Positions 19,767-27,906 of a DNA stretch of 64,000 nt are shown piece by piece. The translations under genes and the position numbers were made by a program. Source of the stretch: Promethearchaeota archaeon (GTDB lineage Archaea > Asgardarchaeota > Lokiarchaeia > Sigynarchaeales > SOKP01); assembly GCA_019894735.1 (NCBI GenBank), contig JAGXOB010000003.1, forward strand, positions 275 through 64,274. The letters run 5' to 3'. Positions within the stretch are counted from its first letter, which is position 1, and each line of letters starts with the position of its first letter. Under the pieces are notes generated by a model. The model was given only the letters and a program-made list of their open reading frames with translations, was not told the DNA's origin and made no database searches.

Positions 19767-20780
19767 TTACATCTTAGATAACAATTTTTTAGCAACTTCG
19801 AACGCATAGTTATAATCAAATACCTTTGTACCTTTAGTTTTTGTTGCTTCTTTTAATATTTCTCCCTCCGAATTTGCTTTTAAACGCCCTAATGCTAATG
19901 CTCCGATTCCAAAAATTCCTGAATAAATTTCTTCATTATCGTGTTTTGGTCTTAGTCCTTCAATTCCATAAGGGGGAACTAAATTGATATCTACTACAAT
20001 TTTCTTACCTTCCAACCTTTCCATTAGATCGCTTGATAAAATTTCAACACCAGCAGCAGCTAGAGACCAGATAATATACGCGTCTTTAGCAACATCATAT
20101 CTTTGTTGTTTTCCAGGCGCAAAAATCCCTTTAATCTCGGTTGCATCCTCTCCAGCTTCTTCGGTTAATTCTTTAGCAAGATTTTTTATAAATTCTTCGT
20201 TCGATTTATCCCATGTTTCAACTAAAAATGTATTCAACCCTTCTCTTGCTGCTAATATGGCAGCAATTCTAGCAACTGGGCCTGCCCCGTAGATTACGAC
20301 TTTTTCTCCTTTTAAATCACTAATATTATATATATTTTTAGCATCGTATAAAGTCTTAGCTACAACTGCAGAAGCAGTAGTATGAGAACCCCTTGGATCT
20401 ATTATTACGGGACATTCAAATGGAGGTACTAAGGATTTAATAACTTTCTTAGCGATTTTTTCACCTTCCGCTACATTAGATCCACCAATAAAAAATGTTG
20501 TAGGTGCTTTAGGTTTACGTGAAAATATAGCATCTTGGACAAGTTTAGGAACTTGATCCGCCGTCATTCTACTTATTGGCACAACAATATCAAAACCAGC
20601 GTCGTAAGCCATGTTAATGTCAAACGGAGAAGCGTTATCATCCGTGTCAAAAAAATAACAAATCTTATCTGAGGTTTCCTTTTTCTTTATTTTAATTGGC
20701 GTCAATTCTATTATTGATTTTTTACCAAGAATACTTTCAATTTTATTTCCAATTTCATTATTTTGAGTAATTTTTCTCAT
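19767..20780 (-). CDS. MtdA/MtdB-like NAD(P)-dependent methylene-tetrahydromethanopterin dehydrogenase
   Basis: Predicted to interconvert methylene- and methenyl-H4MPT (or H4F) with NAD(P)+. The 337 residues include the substrate-side block DINMAYDAGFDIVVPISRMT and the conserved DPRGSHTTASAVVAK segment. A Rossmann motif follows (GEKVVIYGAGPVARIAAIL). The C-terminal block IFGIGALALGRLK is also typical. This family was defined in methylotrophic bacteria. It lies in a leftward run with two unknown paralogues upstream and cdc48 downstream. It is unrelated in fold to the F420-dependent Mtd encoded 3 kb away. The family is clear; the choice of NADP or NAD and of pterin cannot be read here. Confidence 0.88.
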   Translation of the reverse strand: MRKITQNNEIGNKIESILGKKSIIELTPIKIKKKETSDKICYFFDTDDNASPFDINMAYDAGFDIVVPISRMTADQVPKLVQDAIFSRKPKAPTTFFIGGSNVAEGEKIAKKVIKSLVPPFECPVIIDPRGSHTTASAVVAKTLYDAKNIYNISDLKGEKVVIYGAGPVARIAAILAAREGLNTFLVETWDKSNEEFIKNLAKELTEEAGEDATEIKGIFAPGKQQRYDVAKDAYIIWSLAAAGVEILSSDLMERLEGKKIVVDINLVPPYGIEGLRPKHDNEEIYSGIFGIGALALGRLKANSEGEILKEATKTKGTKVFDYNYAFEVAKKLLSKM

Positions 20781-20832: not shown

Positions 20833-21564
20833 TTATTTAGATATCTCAACTTCTACCTCTTCTTCATACTCTTTTTCGATTTCTGCGTTTTTAATAGTTC
20901 TTTTGATTTTAATCTGTTCTGTATCGATGCCTAAATCGTTTGCTAACTTATCAAGGCCTTCAAAGTGCCTTAAATCGCAAATAAATAACCCCTTTAATCT
21001 TTTCCCTTTAATCTCCTTGGCAAGGTTTAAAATATTCATCATCATCCAAGCCTCTCTAACTTTATATCGAATTTCATCTTCTTGTGAGTCATAATCTTGT
21101 TTGAGATATTCCTTCCATAAAGCTAATTGTTGAAAAAGTTCATCCTCGGAAGGAACACCACCGTTTTCTATAATTATCTCTTTAATTCGCTCTTCAAGTG
21201 TTTGTAGCATATTTCTGTGTTCATCCAATGCGGCAGAAAGATAAAATTCCGCATTTTCAGAGATATCAGCATGTTTAAATCGAATTCCTTTCTTTTTGAA
21301 TAAGGTTTTTAGGGGATCGTTAGGGTTTAATGGGTCATTCCAAAAATTAGGTTTTTCTTCCAAAGCAAAATCAGGTGAATATTTATCTATTAAATTATCG
21401 ATGAGCTGAAGATATTCTTTACTAATAAGATGTAAAGACCATAGCAAATCTTCTTTTTTTTCTTTAGGAACTTCGAACCACCAATCTATTGGAAACTCAC
21501 TTTCTACCATGATAAGCTTTAGATGCTTATCTTTTAATGGCTTTAATTCTAACACTTCTGGCAT
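20833..21564 (-). CDS. Unknown protein, relative of the next gene upstream
   Basis: A 243-residue protein that I do not recognise. It starts at an ATG with a good GGAGTG Shine-Dalgarno site. Visible blocks are VLELKPLKDKHLKLIMVES at the start, DPLKTLFKKKGIRFKHADIS near residue 80, a charged helical middle, and REAWMMMNILNLAKEIKG...GLFICDLRHFEGLDKLANDLGI near the end. Each block has a counterpart in the same order in the product of 21588-22205, so the two look like old duplicates. No membrane helix, P-loop or metal cluster is seen. The alternating hydrophobic strands and helices suggest an alpha/beta fold. It sits directly before the MtdA/B-like gene (52 bases), suggesting a role near C1 metabolism. 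Confidence 0.7.
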   Translation of the reverse strand: MPEVLELKPLKDKHLKLIMVESEFPIDWWFEVPKEKKEDLLWSLHLISKEYLQLIDNLIDKYSPDFALEEKPNFWNDPLNPNDPLKTLFKKKGIRFKHADISENAEFYLSAALDEHRNMLQTLEERIKEIIIENGGVPSEDELFQQLALWKEYLKQDYDSQEDEIRYKVREAWMMMNILNLAKEIKGKRLKGLFICDLRHFEGLDKLANDLGIDTEQIKIKRTIKNAEIEKEYEEEVEVEISK

Positions 21565-21587: not shown

Positions 21588-22205
21588 TTAAAATATAAGA
21601 TTTTGAATTGTATGTTTTTTAGTATAGGAAATTACTTTTACTCCCAAATCTCTTAAATTCGTTACGACTTGAGGGCAAATATCCTCGCAAATATCCTCTT
21701 GAACAAAATGTACAAAAGAAACAACTTCATTTTCAAAATGATTTGCAAAATCTAACATTTTTTTTACAATCCACTGTGGTCTTAGCTTTAAGCTTAAAAA
21801 AATCTCTTTTTCTTGAATTTCTTCGCTTAACATGTCAATCCAATTTTTTAGACTTTGTCCTTTATAAGATTCTTTATCACTCATACTGTCGTATTCTTCA
21901 AATAATTCATTTTGAAGTCCTTGTTTTTCAACAATTTCTTCGTAAAGATATCCCATTGCATAATCTGGAATATCTACTTGAATATATGGTATTCCAAGTT
22001 TATCTAATGTTTGTGCAAAAGGTGTTTTCTCAAATTCCTTCATAATTACTTGAAAATCTACGGTAACAAAATTAACATCTTTCTTTTTAAGAAAATCGGT
22101 TAATCTTGATGTATCTGTATTTTGAAAATACCTACCATTTTCTTTTGAGGACATATACGCTATTATTTTTTTATTTTTTACTGATTTTAAATCCAAAACT
22201 TCCAT
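21588..22205 (-). CDS. Unknown protein, diverged paralogue of its neighbour
   Basis: A 205-residue protein from the ATG at 22205. A GAGGTG site (22215-22220) 9 bases upstream supports this start over the GTG that lies within the site. It parallels the downstream neighbour: MEVLDLKSVKNKKIIAYMSS at the start, FAQTLDKLGIPYIQVDIPDY in the middle, and QWIVKKMLDFANHF...NLRDLGVKVISY at the end. Two Cys in EDICEDICP (near residue 175) are not shared. It is the first gene of a run of five (both paralogues, MtdA/B-like, cdc48 and a small protein), with 23 bases to the next gene. It is divergent from the hydrogenase operon across 323 bases. Function unknown. Confidence 0.7.
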   Translation of the reverse strand: MEVLDLKSVKNKKIIAYMSSKENGRYFQNTDTSRLTDFLKKKDVNFVTVDFQVIMKEFEKTPFAQTLDKLGIPYIQVDIPDYAMGYLYEEIVEKQGLQNELFEEYDSMSDKESYKGQSLKNWIDMLSEEIQEKEIFLSLKLRPQWIVKKMLDFANHFENEVVSFVHFVQEDICEDICPQVVTNLRDLGVKVISYTKKHTIQNLIF

Positions 22206-22312
22206 ATAATAATACACCTCTTGTATTTCAACTTTTTAAAAAAAATTCTTACCTAATTGAATTGTCATAAGCTTATAATATAAAGAATTTGACAAGAAAA
22301 TTTTTTAACATA

Positions 22313-22332
22313 TTGATAAGGAATATTATCAA
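22313..22332. promoter_or_regulatory. Perfect 7-bp inverted repeat upstream of the wHTH-HdrA gene
   Basis: TTGATAA (22313-22319) and TTATCAA (22326-22332) are exact reverse complements around 6 bases. It lies in the 323-base gap between the two divergent operons. It could be a regulator site or a small hairpin. Confidence 0.35.
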
Positions 22333-22395
22333 AATTTTTTTCTAAACAATTTTTTTGTTAATTGAAAATCGTCATTTTTATTGATGGAATTCGTT

Positions 22396-22407
22396 GATCA
22401 TATGATC
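22396..22407. promoter_or_regulatory. 12-bp perfect palindrome GATCATATGATC, candidate operator
   Basis: A fully symmetric 12-base site ends about 13 bases before the likely TATA box of the hydrogenase operon, a common place for archaeal operators. Winged-helix dimers bind such sites, and the first gene of the operon encodes a winged-helix domain. Autoregulation is therefore a reasonable but untested inference. Confidence 0.45.
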
Positions 22408-22419
22408 GATTTCAAACAC

Positions 22420-22430
22420 ATTTATATATT
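22420..22430 (+). promoter_or_regulatory. Likely TATA box of the hydrogenase operon
   Basis: The string TTTATATATTT fits an archaeal TATA box. Transcription would then begin around 22447-22450, leaving a leader of about 80 bases before the ATG at 22529. The rest of the gap holds only AT-rich sequence and the two palindromes listed separately. Confidence 0.4.
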
Positions 22431-22528
22431 TTCACAACATATAATGTCATGAAGAAAAAATAATTTGTCAAAAAATAGATTTTAACAAAATAAATTTAGA
22501 ATTAAAAATTCAATAGGAAAGCTCAAAA

Positions 22529-25075
22529 ATGGATATTTATTCAATTTTAGCCCATCCGATAAGAAGAAAACTCTTATACATTCTCGAAGAAGAAGGTTTT
22601 ATCCCATATACAGAATTAATGATGAAATTAGGTGTAGTACAAACAGGACAATTAAATTTTCATTTGAAAAAGCTTAATAATTTAGTAAGTAAAGACAAAA
22701 AATCGTATTATTTAACTGATGATGGTAAAAGAGTTTTAAGGATAATAGGATTAAATAAAAGAATTTTATCTGGAGAAGAAATAGACTATTTGAAATCAAA
22801 AAGGAGTGAAATAAACAGAATAGGGGTTATTATCTGTAATTGTAATACAGAAGTTTCAAAAGTGCTTAACATTAACTCCTTAGAAAACTATGTAAGTAAA
22901 ATAAATAATGTAGTCTCAGTTAAAATCCTTGATAATTTATGTCAAGAAAAAAACCAAGATAAAATTAATAATTGGATTACTGATAACTTCATAAATAAAA
23001 TTGTTATCGCTGCTTGTTCTCCTAAAACACATCAGCACATATTTGAACGCCTTTTTCAAAAAATAATTGATCATACAAATATTGAGATTGCAAATATAAG
23101 AGAACAATGTTGTTGGGTACATTATTCAAGTAAAAAGCATGTTGATAGTCTTTTAACTCTGAAAAAAGCGCAATTACTTATAGAAGCCTCAGTTAATCGA
23201 GTAAGTCTTCAAAAACCAATTAAAATAAAAAGAGTTGAAGTTGAAAAAAGTTGCGCTATTGTTGGAGGTGGGATTGCGGGTATGAAAATAGCGTTAAACT
23301 TATCAAGGGCAGGTATCAAGTGTTACCTAATTGAAAAGTCTCCTACATTAGGTGGAAAAGTAGCAAGATGGCAAAAAGTTTCTAATATGGGAGATTGTTC
23401 TGCTTGTTTCGTCTCTGAAATAATTGGGGAAATTGTAAAAGAAAAAAAAATCGAGATCTTGACAAATACGGAAATAATAAGTGTATCGGGAGAAGTTGGT
23501 AATTTTACTATAGGTTTAATTAAAAATCCTCGCTATATTGATGAGAGTAAATGTACAGGTTGTAAGCAATGTATTGATGTGTGTGCACGAGAGAAAGTTA
23601 ATATGTATGAATTCGGATTAATAAATAGAAAAATAATTAACTTTCCTTTTCAATACTGTTATCCTTACATCCCAGTTATTGATGATGAAGATATTATTAA
23701 CTGCCTTGAATGTGGAGTATGTGAACGAGCTTGTGCAAATAAAGCAATAAATTTAATAGAAAAGCCTAAGGAATTAAAAATTAAAGTAGGCGCAAAAGTT
23801 ATAGCTATTGGTTCAGATCTTTATTCAAATTTAAAAGAATATAATTACAATCCACGAAATAATATTCTAACTTCGGCAGAATTTGAACGAATATTATCTT
23901 CAGATGGCCTAACCGATGGAAAGATCGTAAAATTGTCTGATGGGAAACAAGTGAAAACAATATCAATTATTCAAGAAGTAGGATCTTCAAACTATCTATG
24001 TGAATATTCGGATATTTTAGCCCTAAAATATATAGATGATATCAAAGTAAAGAACCCAGATTGTGAAGTTAATGTTTTTTACGATTTAAGTAAAATAAAA
24101 GAAAAAGACGAGATAATACTAAAATCAACTCATCCTAGATTTCTTTACGCTAATAAAGTATTATTTGAGACAAGAGAGAATATTAATTATGTAGTTGCGG
24201 ATTCTATTGAGTTTCAGAGTGATTTGATTGTTTTAAATCTTAAATTAATTCCAAATAAGGATCTGAAATCTCTAAGAAAGATTATGGACTTCACTTTAAA
24301 TGACTATGGTTTTATGAGTGAAGAAACTTTAGCTTCTGGTATTTATGGTGTTGGAACAATATTTGGGCCATTAAATTATCACTCCACTATTGCAACCACC
24401 AATAGCATAGCGTTAAAAGTAATATCACTTCTTTCAAATGATTATTTAATAGCAGAATATACGGGAATAGAGATTAATGAAGACAAATGTGGATTGTGCA
24501 ACCTCTGCGTTAATTCTTGCCCTTACAATGCAATAAGCATAAACTCCGAAAAAATTACTGTTGACAAGTTTAAATGTAAAGCTTGTGGTATGTGTGTTAG
24601 TGTTTGTCCTACTAATGCCATCGAAATGAATATAAATACATCAGAAAAGATTTTAAAAACGATCGAAATTTTCTCAAAATTCAATAAAAAACCAAAAATC
24701 ATCGCTTTTTGTTGCCAATCGTGCGGTTACGCTGCCGCTGACGATGCAGGATTAAAAAAATTGTTATATCGACCTAATGTTTTTATAATCTCTGTTCCTT
24801 GTACTGGACGTATTGATACTGAATTCATTATTAAATCTTTTGAAATGGGGTTTGATGGAGTTATGATTATCGGCTGTAGAAAGGATTCTTGTAGATTTAT
24901 TGATGGGATTGAAAAATTAAAAAAAAGAGTTGGGCTTTTAAAAAAGATTCTAGGACCCAAATTAAACAGACGGATAATAGTGATGGGTGTAAACGGAGTA
25001 GAAGGACAAAAATTTGCTGAAATCTCTAATAAATTCTATAATTTATTAAAGGAGGAGATTAAAAGTGAAGCTTAA
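22529..25075 (+). CDS. hdrA-mvhD: Winged-helix / HdrA / MvhD fusion protein
   Basis: An 848-residue three-part protein. Residues 1-80 form an ArsR-like winged helix (SILAHPIRRKLLYILEEEG, then GQLNFHLKKLNNLV and a YYLTDDGKRVL wing). Residues 95-700 are HdrA, the flavin-containing electron-bifurcating subunit of heterodisulfide reductase. It has the family's CNCN motif, FAD loop VGGGIAG (245-251), MGDCSAC, two ferredoxin-like clusters (342-352 and 392-401) and two more (about 654-665 and 683-693). Residues 720-848 are MvhD, which links HdrA to the hydrogenase (CCQSC at 728-732, then PCTGRID and GCRKDSC). mvhG and mvhA follow in the same operon. No HdrB or HdrC is nearby. The enzyme parts are secure; the DNA-binding role is inferred. 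Confidence 0.9.
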   Translation: MDIYSILAHPIRRKLLYILEEEGFIPYTELMMKLGVVQTGQLNFHLKKLNNLVSKDKKSYYLTDDGKRVLRIIGLNKRILSGEEIDYLKSKRSEINRIGVIICNCNTEVSKVLNINSLENYVSKINNVVSVKILDNLCQEKNQDKINNWITDNFINKIVIAACSPKTHQHIFERLFQKIIDHTNIEIANIREQCCWVHYSSKKHVDSLLTLKKAQLLIEASVNRVSLQKPIKIKRVEVEKSCAIVGGGIAGMKIALNLSRAGIKCYLIEKSPTLGGKVARWQKVSNMGDCSACFVSEIIGEIVKEKKIEILTNTEIISVSGEVGNFTIGLIKNPRYIDESKCTGCKQCIDVCAREKVNMYEFGLINRKIINFPFQYCYPYIPVIDDEDIINCLECGVCERACANKAINLIEKPKELKIKVGAKVIAIGSDLYSNLKEYNYNPRNNILTSAEFERILSSDGLTDGKIVKLSDGKQVKTISIIQEVGSSNYLCEYSDILALKYIDDIKVKNPDCEVNVFYDLSKIKEKDEIILKSTHPRFLYANKVLFETRENINYVVADSIEFQSDLIVLNLKLIPNKDLKSLRKIMDFTLNDYGFMSEETLASGIYGVGTIFGPLNYHSTIATTNSIALKVISLLSNDYLIAEYTGIEINEDKCGLCNLCVNSCPYNAISINSEKITVDKFKCKACGMCVSVCPTNAIEMNINTSEKILKTIEIFSKFNKKPKIIAFCCQSCGYAAADDAGLKKLLYRPNVFIISVPCTGRIDTEFIIKSFEMGFDGVMIIGCRKDSCRFIDGIEKLKKRVGLLKKILGPKLNRRIIVMGVNGVEGQKFAEISNKFYNLLKEEIKSEA

Positions 25076-25829
25076 ATTTTTAATTACCTCTTTAACATCT
25101 TGTACTGGATGTATAACAGCATTAATATCGCTAGATATATTTCCACAATTTCTTGAGAGAACGAAAATCGAATATTTTCCATTTATATCTGGCAATTTAG
25201 AGATCAAAGAATGTGATGTAGCGCTAGTAGAGGGGTGTGTATCCGAAAAGAATCAAATCGAAGATCTTCAAGAAATACGAAAAAATGCAAAAAAACTATA
25301 TGCATTAGGTACATGCTCAGCATTTGGGGGGATTCTTAGTCTCTCAAATAAAAAAGAATCGTATCCTATTTCAACGTTTGTAGAAGTTGATGGTATTATA
25401 CCTGGATGTCCTCCTCCGTCCATACTTTTAGGAAATTGTTTATTGAGGTTAGTTGAGAACAAAAAAATCAAGCTAAGTTTAAAAAATATGTGTTCTACTT
25501 GTCCTTCAAGCAACCACGCAAAATTAGATTTACCATTAACAATAGTAAAGATTTTTCCAAGAAACGATGAAATTCGTTTTCCGGAAGAAAATTTATCGTG
25601 TTTTTTGAACGATGGGATTTTATGTTTAGGTCCTGTTACTCGAGATGGCTGTAATCATCTCTGCATTAATCAAGGATTACCTTGTGAAGGATGTTTAGGC
25701 ACGGTTTCAAAGGGGTTTACATCGAATTTAATCAATTTCTTAAGTCTTTTTAACCTTTCTAAAGATTTAAGAAAATATAAAGGGATATATTATAGGTTCT
25801 CAAAATCACCTATAGGAGGGAAGGTTTGA
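25065..25829 (+). CDS. mvhG: [NiFe] hydrogenase small subunit, MvhG type
   Basis: The iron-sulfur electron-transfer subunit of a group 3c-like cytoplasmic hydrogenase. The 254 residues carry the proximal-cluster motif SCTGC at the N-terminus, then EGCVSE, LGTCSAFGG and PGCPPP. The C-terminal ferredoxin-type cysteines follow (CLGPVTRDGCNHLCINQGLPCEGCLG). There is no Tat signal, as expected for a group 3 enzyme. The start is a GTG with an AGGAGG site, and the gene overlaps the end of the HdrA fusion by 11 bases, so translation is coupled. It passes electrons from MvhA to the MvhD part of the fusion. Confidence 0.95.
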   Translation: MKLKFLITSLTSCTGCITALISLDIFPQFLERTKIEYFPFISGNLEIKECDVALVEGCVSEKNQIEDLQEIRKNAKKLYALGTCSAFGGILSLSNKKESYPISTFVEVDGIIPGCPPPSILLGNCLLRLVENKKIKLSLKNMCSTCPSSNHAKLDLPLTIVKIFPRNDEIRFPEENLSCFLNDGILCLGPVTRDGCNHLCINQGLPCEGCLGTVSKGFTSNLINFLSLFNLSKDLRKYKGIYYRFSKSPIGGKV

Positions 25830-27130
25830 TGGATAAAGTTGTAGAAGCATGCACAAGGGTTGAAGGTCATGGAAATTTAAACATTTATTTAAAAAATAAT
25901 GAAATATATGAAACTGAATTGAACTTTTCAGTATTTAGAGGATTTGAAAATATTTTAGTAGGCAAAAAGTTATTAGATATTCCAAAAATTGTATCTAGAA
26001 TCTGTGGACTGTGCTACGCATCTCAAACAATTGCAAGTTGCAAAGCAATAGAAGATATATACGGAATAGAACCATCACACCAATCAATTTTGCTTAGAAG
26101 ACTTTTATTATCCGGAGAATTAATAAAATCCCATATTATGCATTATTTTTTCCAGTCCTTTCCAGATTTATTAAAAATATTTAAAAATAATACTATAATT
26201 AACGAATATTATAATTTAATTAATTATAATCCTCATTTAACGACAAATTTTTTTAATTTAATAAAAATTGGTACAGAAATAAATACGTTAATAGGAGGAA
26301 GGGTGCTACATCCAATTACTCCTTTTCCTGGAGGATTAATATTCAATCCTACTCGAAAGAATTTAATTCTTATAGAGAAATATCTAAAAAAGGGAATTTA
26401 CTATATAGAAGCTATAATTGAAAATTTTATAGATTTATTTTCTGCTTTTGATCCTCCTACAGAATTTAATCTTTCTAATCCTATATATTTCGGCTTAAAA
26501 AATAATATGGAGTTTGATAGGTATGAAGGAGACCTCAGAATTGAACAAAATGAAACAACTTATGAAGATTTTCAAGCGAAAAATTATTCAAAATATTTTG
26601 ATAAAGACCCTAATCTTTATGGGATTATGTTTAAGTCGAATTCGAGAAATAAAATTTTAACAGGACCATTAGCGCGCTATAAGTTAACTCAAAATTATGG
26701 GATAGATAAAATATCCGAATATATAAACAATTTTGGAAAAAAATGGAAAAGCAATTTATTATTTTTAAACTTTCTACAATTAATTGAATGTTATTACGAA
26801 ATTCAAAAAAGTGTTGAAATATTAGATACTACTTCACTAAAAAGTAAAACAAAACTTAAACAACTAAAATCAATAAAAAAATCAAATGGAATAGGGGTTA
26901 TCGAAGCACCAAGAGGTATACTAATGCACCATTATCATTTAAATAAAGCTAAAATCGTTGATCAAGTGAAACTTTTCATTGCAACCGAAATAAATTTGCC
27001 TATTCTTAACAAAATGATCACTGAATATGCTAAAAAGCTATATGAAAAAGAAGATATCGATTCTGTTAAAGAAAAAATTCAAATTATGATAAGAGCATTT
27101 GATCCTTGCATATCGTGCGCTTCTCATTAA
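25829..27130 (+). CDS. mvhA: [NiFe] hydrogenase large subunit, MvhA type, without C-terminal extension
   Basis: The catalytic subunit that oxidises or forms H2. It has 433 residues from the ATG, which overlaps the mvhG stop by one base and follows a GGAGG site. The N-terminal motif TRVEGHGNLNI is present. Ni-binding motif L1 reads RICGLCYASQ, so the usual His three residues after the second Cys is Gln. Motif L2 reads DPCISCASH. The stop codon comes immediately after that His, so no peptide remains for a maturation protease to remove. The four Cys ligands are all present, so the enzyme should hold the NiFe site. It is the last gene of the operon. Confidence 0.93.
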   Translation: MDKVVEACTRVEGHGNLNIYLKNNEIYETELNFSVFRGFENILVGKKLLDIPKIVSRICGLCYASQTIASCKAIEDIYGIEPSHQSILLRRLLLSGELIKSHIMHYFFQSFPDLLKIFKNNTIINEYYNLINYNPHLTTNFFNLIKIGTEINTLIGGRVLHPITPFPGGLIFNPTRKNLILIEKYLKKGIYYIEAIIENFIDLFSAFDPPTEFNLSNPIYFGLKNNMEFDRYEGDLRIEQNETTYEDFQAKNYSKYFDKDPNLYGIMFKSNSRNKILTGPLARYKLTQNYGIDKISEYINNFGKKWKSNLLFLNFLQLIECYYEIQKSVEILDTTSLKSKTKLKQLKSIKKSNGIGVIEAPRGILMHHYHLNKAKIVDQVKLFIATEINLPILNKMITEYAKKLYEKEDIDSVKEKIQIMIRAFDPCISCASH

Positions 27131-27188: not shown

Positions 27189-27906
27189 TTGAAAGAAAAT
27201 CTCTTAAATAACGCCAATACAGAGCTTCCATTTAGAGAATTGTGTGAGACTCTTTTATTTTATTTTGATGAGACTATAGGTCATGTCCCACTTCTTATTT
27301 GTCCAGAAAATGCGCTAGATGATGATTCAGGAAAAACGCGTCTTATAAGATACCATCCAATTTGGTTTTTAGAACTTAAAGATAAAACTACAATTAACCG
27401 AATCGATTTAGAATGCTGTAATCAAATGTATTTTGCGAAGAAATTTATTATTTAAAGGAATCCATATTGACCACATTGTTATAAACGCTCAAAAAAAATC
27501 GTTTTCTAAAATTCGATTATTTGATTATGATAGAGTTGTTCAACAAAAATTTGGGATTAAAGATCAATTTAAAATAACGAATATAAATATTATTAACAAT
27601 TTTCAGGAAATAGAATTTATAGTAAAGAATAACAGCAATAAGGAATTCAACGATCTCATTGTCCGAATTACTCACATTAAAGAATTTTTTAAAACAGAGG
27701 GACTAAACGAAAAAGTTGAAAAATGCCTTCCCGAAGAAGAATTATTGTTTATAACGCCTGTAATTAGAAATACAAACAATTATTTGTTTTCCATTATTGA
27801 AGAACATTCTAATAGAACAATATTTTCTAATAAAATTGATTTAGAATTAATAAAAATCATTTTTATTAAGGAAATTTTTCAGATTTTTAAAATCTTCTCT
27901 GTTTAA
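27189..27906 (+). pseudogene. Unknown gene split by a one-base frameshift
   Basis: Two overlapping frames look like one protein. The first (27189-27455, TTG start) ends ...NQMYFAKKFII. The second (to 27906) continues from about 27445 as LFKGIHIDHIVINAQ. Restoring one T in the stretch ATTATTTAAAGG near 27450-27460 joins them into about 235 residues. The first part has the block RLIRYHPIWFLELKDKTT, and the second is beta-rich and charged. I do not recognise the family. The 3' end overlaps the convergent Rag GTPase by 60 bases, an unusually long overlap that may point to further decay. A real mutation, a sequencing error or frameshifting are all possible. It follows mvhA by 58 bases. Confidence 0.5.

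Follow-up and report, generated by a model that had tools for sequence, protein, structure and literature searches.

In the 64-kb stretch of DNA analysed here (the window), the gene of a protein in which a winged helix (WH) is fused to HdrA and MvhD is preceded by a 20-bp palindrome, TTGAYAA-N6-TTRTCAW. On sequence comparison, the palindrome is a new candidate operator with a predicted two-operon regulon. We consider it probable that WH-HdrA-MvhD serves as an enzyme subunit and also exerts autogenous control over two operons, its own and that of mtdB, in a PutA-like manner.

The fusion is a single ORF of 848 aa (22529..25075, + strand). It consists of a DUF7347 winged-helix domain (residues 1-80, 22529..22768, +), a linker (residues 81-96, 22769..22816, +) with pLDDT below 50 at residues 82-93, an HdrA part (residues 97-713, 22817..24667, +) and an MvhD (FlpD) part (residues 721-842, 24689..25054, +). 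The full protein scores 40.6 bits against PF24038 (DUF7347; gathering cut-off 27.6) and residues 724-841 match PF02662 (MvhD/FlpD) with an E value of 2.8e-33, which places it in both families. HdrA sequence and fold, the flavin-binding region and the cluster-binding cysteines indicate that it is also a member of the HdrA family. The initial annotation was thus right in describing a winged helix, a complete HdrA and an MvhD in one ORF with hydrogenase genes downstream. The winged helix, which it described as ArsR-like, is a DUF7347 domain and does not fall in the ArsR family, as residues 1-100 score 12.5 bits against HTH_5 (PF01022), below the cut-off of 22. A distant homologue, L047, passes the HTH_5 cut-off with 26.9 bits.

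In the predicted model, residues 1-80 adopt a winged-helix fold with a wing and a recognition helix, the feature on which the initial annotation had staked its reading of the N-terminus, and the nearest structures are DNA-binding regulators. The predicted recognition helix (residues 39-52, 22643..22684, +) is the most conserved part of the winged helix, with a mean conservation of 0.89 vs 0.76 for the whole domain and with 9 of 14 columns conserved at 90% or more in alignment A2. Position 41 varies, being N in L047, I or K in L041-L043 and R in L046.

The hdrA gene is followed by genes for an MvhG-like hydrogenase small subunit (25065..25829, +), whose best solved match is MvhG (5odc_E), and for an MvhA-like [NiFe]-hydrogenase large subunit (25826..27130, +), whose nearest solved chains are 7t2r_D and MvhA (5odc_F). 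The large subunit has the four Ni-Fe site cysteines (RxCGxC, DPCxxC) of the MvhAG-type (group 3c-like), here in RICGLC and DPCISC. Its L1 motif carries Gln in place of the His usual in [NiFe]-hydrogenases (RICGLCYASQ vs RxCGxCxxxH); the Gln is common to most Lokiarchaeota relatives examined and to L042, and His is kept in L038, L047, L131, L134 and L137. Farther downstream, two small ORFs of the window (27189-27906) match residues 1-88 (85% identity) and 206-342 (86%) of a 346-aa ORF in L001, and the stretch between residues 88 and 206 is missing or broken in the window counterpart. Divergent to hdrA runs an operon on the - strand, composed of a 209-aa gene without Pfam or NCBIfam match (21588..22217), which is the predicted co-target, a 243-aa gene without Pfam match above the cut-off (20833..21564), and the gene of an MtdB-like methylene-tetrahydromethanopterin dehydrogenase (19767..20780; Mpt_N, PF09176, E 1e-25). 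The MtdB ORF is ~220 aa longer at its N-terminus in many relatives, perhaps through fusion with the 209-aa or 243-aa protein. In the window and many relatives, hdrA-mvhG-mvhA stands opposite this 209-aa/243-aa/MtdB operon, which is followed by a cdc48-type gene; in other relatives the hdrA and mtdB operons are separated. An FrhB-like gene (72-79% identity among relatives) lies immediately ahead of hdrA in eight loci (L014, L016, L019-L022, L037 and L040).

The fusion is widespread. A homologue search returned 2721 proteins at E 0.001, 7996 candidates were scored, and PF24038 was present in all 120 homologues among the matches listed. The initial annotation had pointed to other Asgard genomes as the place to look for the same fusion, and 227 genomes of the phylum were scanned with the winged-helix alignment. 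At a threshold of E 2e-25, 55 of them have the domain in a long ORF (525-911 aa), with HdrA identity checked for part of these ORFs. The class of a Bathyarchaeota relative has a fusion-type long ORF in at least 2 of 250 genomes, and L238, from the second of these, is an HdrA by translation. No relative of the fusion was found in the viral contigs searched, nor in the plasmids, which were searched with the winged helix only. When the winged helix was excluded and a tree was built from the HdrA-MvhD part, 21 carriers grouped in a single clade, separate from 24 WH-less HdrA proteins (100/100). The tree does not include L215, L228 and L229, which have stops within their frames, and the tree program flags the long branches of L223, L047, L224 and L238. 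Judged from these sequences, the fusion is therefore old and has been kept. A start-site artefact was rejected because the winged helix occurs in all of the listed homologues and is conserved, with dN/dS values of 0.06-0.29 against ten relatives. A recent local fusion or an assembly chimera was likewise rejected, since the HdrA-MvhD part by itself already unites the carriers in one clade. Many frames of the WH-less HdrA paralogues contain an in-frame TGA (e.g. G004:C1:1502307-1504229), the pattern expected of selenoproteins. A DUF7347 winged helix shares an ORF with an RDD membrane domain in other archaea (L054, L055 and L056), the DUF7347 score of L055 being marginally below the cut-off.

The sole strict copy of the palindrome within the window, TTGATAA-GGAATA-TTATCAA (22313..22332), lies between the hdrA and mtdB promoters. 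About 100 bp downstream of it, a degenerate copy with two mismatches (22431..22450) starts 2 bp past TTTATATA (22421..22428, +), the TATA-type box of the hdrA promoter as assigned by consensus only. Two more degenerate copies, also with two mismatches each, are found at 22452..22471, with an intact half-site TTGTCAA at 22465, and at 22289..22308, with one half-site TTGACAA intact. The initial annotation had read a DNA-binding role from the fold and proposed 22290-22450 as the region for a binding assay; the presence of a conserved palindrome in this region lends that reading independent support.

The pattern TTGAYAA-N6-TTRTCAW was first seen by eye in the upstream regions of divergent relatives. 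A dyad test was then applied to 30 non-redundant upstream regions of 320 bp, in which all 4-mer dyads with gaps of 2-16 were compared with 200 dinucleotide shuffles. The top six dyads by excess over the shuffles were all parts of this one palindrome: ACAA-N6-TTGT occurred in 12 of the 30 regions vs 0.36 expected, and GACA-N8-TGTC in 5 vs 0.04 expected. The evidence is this excess over expectation and not the raw count, as the most frequent dyad of a shuffled set reached a raw count of 12.7 on average and of 18 at most.

Forty-nine loci (794.7 kb, window included) contain 46 strict sites, with A or T allowed at both ends. The 350 bp ahead of hdrA contain 26 of them, and another 2 lie at -364; the FrhB-like gene is preceded by 12 and a gene of the mtdB operon by 4, and 2 are found elsewhere (L008, L013), which puts 44 of the 46 at hdrA, FrhB-hdrA or mtdB-operon promoters. 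The same loci hold no copy of the reversed motif, none with a 7-base spacer and two with a 5-base spacer. When the best site within 400 bp before hdrA was taken in 56 loci, it had no mismatch in 28, one in 10, two in 5 and more in 13; in 7 of these 13 a strict copy is found farther out, at -1301 to -1509, ahead of the FrhB-like gene. A strict upstream copy therefore belongs to 35 of the 56 WH-HdrA genes or operons, and a copy with at most one mismatch to 45, in a set that includes many close relatives and one contig counted twice (L046 and L136). Among 30 non-redundant loci the corresponding numbers are 17 and 23.

Sites precede the FrhB-like gene in 7/7 loci that have the region on the contig (the contig of L014 starts within the gene and is outside this count). 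The nearer copy ends 71-73 bp before the FrhB-like start in six loci, and the nearer copy of L022 has one mismatch. The region immediately upstream of hdrA is without a site in the L020 and L022 genomes, so the pattern located the shifted promoter unaided. At mtdB, a strict site is found 37-86 bp before a gene of the operon in L019, L021 and L037 (mtdB separated) and in L024 (1.1 kb between).

Strict sites are rare in control sequences. Random 400-bp windows gave 0 strict sites and 18 with one mismatch among 843, and overlapping AT-rich windows gave 4 and 40 among 541; because of the latter number, one-mismatch sites alone are weak evidence. Six whole genomes of 2.3-5.0 Mb (22.4 Mb together) contain 14 distinct strict sites, of which 5 lie within 2 kb upstream of a WH-HdrA gene (P for 5 or more, 9e-14); two of the five come from loci that had defined the pattern (L006 and L036 genomes) and three do not (L020 and L022 genomes). 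Of the remaining strict sites of these genomes, those inspected occur within or close to unrelated genes and resemble chance matches. Among 18 listed proximal strict sites, 8 start 2 bp past a TTATATA-type box and four more follow a T-rich TTTTTATT stretch. This placement, together with the strict sites in the AT-rich controls, would suit a palindrome that is a promoter element or an RNA-level signal of AT-rich genomes and has no regulator at all. Such an element is hardly credible to us, given that the six genomes contain only the 14 strict sites and the window one, and that the 6-base spacer is fixed.

The site also reaches the deep branches of the family, where further copies were seen after the pattern had been fixed. 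The L131-L133 clade, at 37-38% identity to the window protein, has strict sites in 3/3 loci, with 38-43 bp between the site and the aligned start codon; being closely related, the three amount to one event. The core ACAA-N6-TTGT occurs in L041 (2), L042 (2) and L043 (1), and it also precedes both fusions from the class of the Bathyarchaeota relative, taking the form GAAACAA-N6-TTGTTTC in L047. As the core has a frequency of ~1 per 20 kb in the loci examined, single cases are no more than suggestive. A site or its core is retained on the branches that split off deepest in the tree (L131-L133 with L238, then L047), so the palindrome probably dates back to the fusion.

Exceptions are found on both sides of this association, and MAG incompleteness weakens every absence. 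No site within one mismatch was found in L032, L041-L043, L046/L136, L047, L134, L135 and L137; L041-L043 and L047 retain the core only, and upstream of WH-HdrA in L032, L046/L136, L134, L135 and L137 no convincing palindrome was found. Conversely, 140 of the 227 genomes scanned in the phylum contain the strict pattern. Many of them lack the fusion, and a minority of the sites was inspected, so the presence of the pattern alone proves nothing for a single genome. Among 20 mtdB loci, namely 19 from genomes without a WH-HdrA match and L170 from one that has WH-HdrA (G177), one (L163) has a strict site. The 19 cover all but one (G090) of the 20 genomes with mtdB and no WH-HdrA match, and the sequence upstream of mtdB is short in some, with less than 120 bp in L151, L153 and L165 and less than 350 bp in L159 and L160, so that these five carry little weight. 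The mtdB promoters of L161, L162 and L164, from genomes without WH-HdrA, have no palindrome; by eye, they share a different conserved element, approximately AACATAATATGAT..GGAAAATCTACAA. A strict palindrome also lies between a paralogue of the 209-aa protein and an NfnA-like gene in L171 (G003) and L193 (G149). NfnA, a bifurcating transhydrogenase, was rejected as a conserved third target, as the strict site occurs in 2 of 30 NfnA loci.

The site of L163 precedes the mtdB operon although no WH-HdrA was found in that genome, and other proteins of the same genomes carry DUF7347, in ORFs of 100-550 aa in many Asgard genomes. Both observations would fit a palindrome that is a true operator bound by a separate, standalone winged-helix regulator, with the fused domain left as a relic or a docking part. 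We regard this as unlikely. The site tracks the WH-HdrA clade down to its deep branches, a strict site is absent at 27/27 WH-less HdrA or HdrA-MvhD loci, and conservation within the domain is highest in the recognition helix, for which a relic would have no use. A second alternative makes the winged helix a protein-protein docking domain of the complex and the palindrome unrelated to it. Winged helices do serve protein docking, in ESCRT-II and elsewhere, and HdrA complexes have many partners, so the conserved recognition helix could equally serve protein contact. Docking is in our judgement very unlikely to be the explanation, as it gives no account of a palindrome that marks the operons of one HdrA clade together with mtdB. 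It also leaves L167 unexplained, a locus from a genome in which no fusion was detected. Here mtdB is directly preceded by a standalone winged-helix gene of 90 aa (38% identity), and the sole ACAA-N6-TTGT core of the 11.2-kb locus lies at -195.

We therefore return to the fused winged helix as the DNA-binding part. In the proposed mechanism, an MvhAG-type [NiFe]-hydrogenase complex would have this protein as its HdrA-MvhD subunit, and the same protein would regulate transcription of its own operon. The DUF7347 winged helix would dimerise by itself or via the HdrA dimer; HdrA is dimeric in the methanogen complex, and such a dimer offers two winged helices to a two-fold site. From the shared occurrence of domain and site, we infer that this winged helix binds the palindrome adjoining the TATA box in the hdrA-mvhG-mvhA promoter; it would also bind the palindrome of the mtdB-operon promoter. 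Autogenous control is the simplest reading, because the hdrA-mvhGA and mtdB promoters share the site and in the loci examined the winged helix tied to both is that of WH-HdrA. The bound protein would most likely repress both operons. In archaeal promoters, a protein bound between the TATA box and the start site blocks the polymerase, and repression is favoured since the palindrome sits just past a TATA-type box in the 8 cases above. By analogy with PutA, release would probably come about through assembly with MvhGA or through the redox state of the flavin and Fe-S clusters, and the supply of hydrogenase and C1 oxidoreductase would thereby follow demand. The initial annotation had suggested that hydrogen or ferredoxin redox state could be coupled to transcription in this way, with docking as the alternative. 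More tentatively, it is possible that the complex, as an electron-bifurcating hydrogenase, reads its own flavin/Fe-S redox state and switches, via the fused winged helix, between a working enzyme and a DNA-bound form that represses its own operon and the mtdB (C1) operon. This redox loop might be as old as the fusion and kept in several Asgard lineages and in some of the Bathyarchaeota relative's class, with the standalone winged helix of L167 as a split or pre-fusion form.

The trifunctional flavoenzyme PutA, as described in the text of PMC5293562, represses putA and its partner gene putP through an N-terminal DNA-binding domain. WH-HdrA-MvhD is similarly an enzyme polypeptide that carries a domain of DNA-binding type, and the palindrome in its own control region, present in the 35 loci above, is a candidate operator. 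The protein is not a member of the PutA family: PutA joins a ribbon-helix-helix to proline-oxidising domains and switches to the membrane (PMC5293562), whereas here a winged helix is joined to HdrA-MvhD. Redox and ligand regulators such as RosR, YodB and those of the MarR type are small proteins, whereas this winged helix forms a single domain within an enzyme subunit of 848 aa. The protein resembles the HdrA of methanogen MvhAGD-HdrABC (5odc and relatives) in fold and sequence over residues 91-713 and in its MvhD, MvhG and MvhA partners, and differs in its N-terminal winged helix and in the fusion of MvhD to HdrA. Immediately downstream in the window, neither an HdrB nor an HdrC gene was recognised.

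Parts of this system are already known. HdrA-MvhD fusions have been described as common in Archaea (PMC11237513), in a paper whose main text does not contain the word "winged". A Helarchaeota cluster of HydB/Nqo4-like, Oxidored_q6 and disulfide reductase-FlpD genes was proposed as an undiscovered redox complex (PMC6478937); it is the same gene cluster, and its contig NODE_147_length_7209 is our locus L033. That study states that it sought transcription factors and binding motifs, for which it points to its Supplementary Methods, and its passages on the cluster do not mention a winged helix (PMC6478937). In the open-licence literature searched we found neither DUF7347 nor a winged helix on HdrA, the palindrome or the two-operon regulon.

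Few enzymes control their own genes via a fused DNA-binding domain, and PutA is the standard case. The DNA-binding type domain on HdrA is now linked to a concrete 20-bp candidate site and a predicted two-operon regulon. Asgard archaea, among known organisms the nearest kin of the eukaryotic host lineage, are thought to live by hydrogen-linked syntrophy. The finding bears on how hydrogen metabolism is controlled in these archaea and, if the proposal is true, their hydrogen and ferredoxin balance would act on gene expression directly, with no separate sensor involved.
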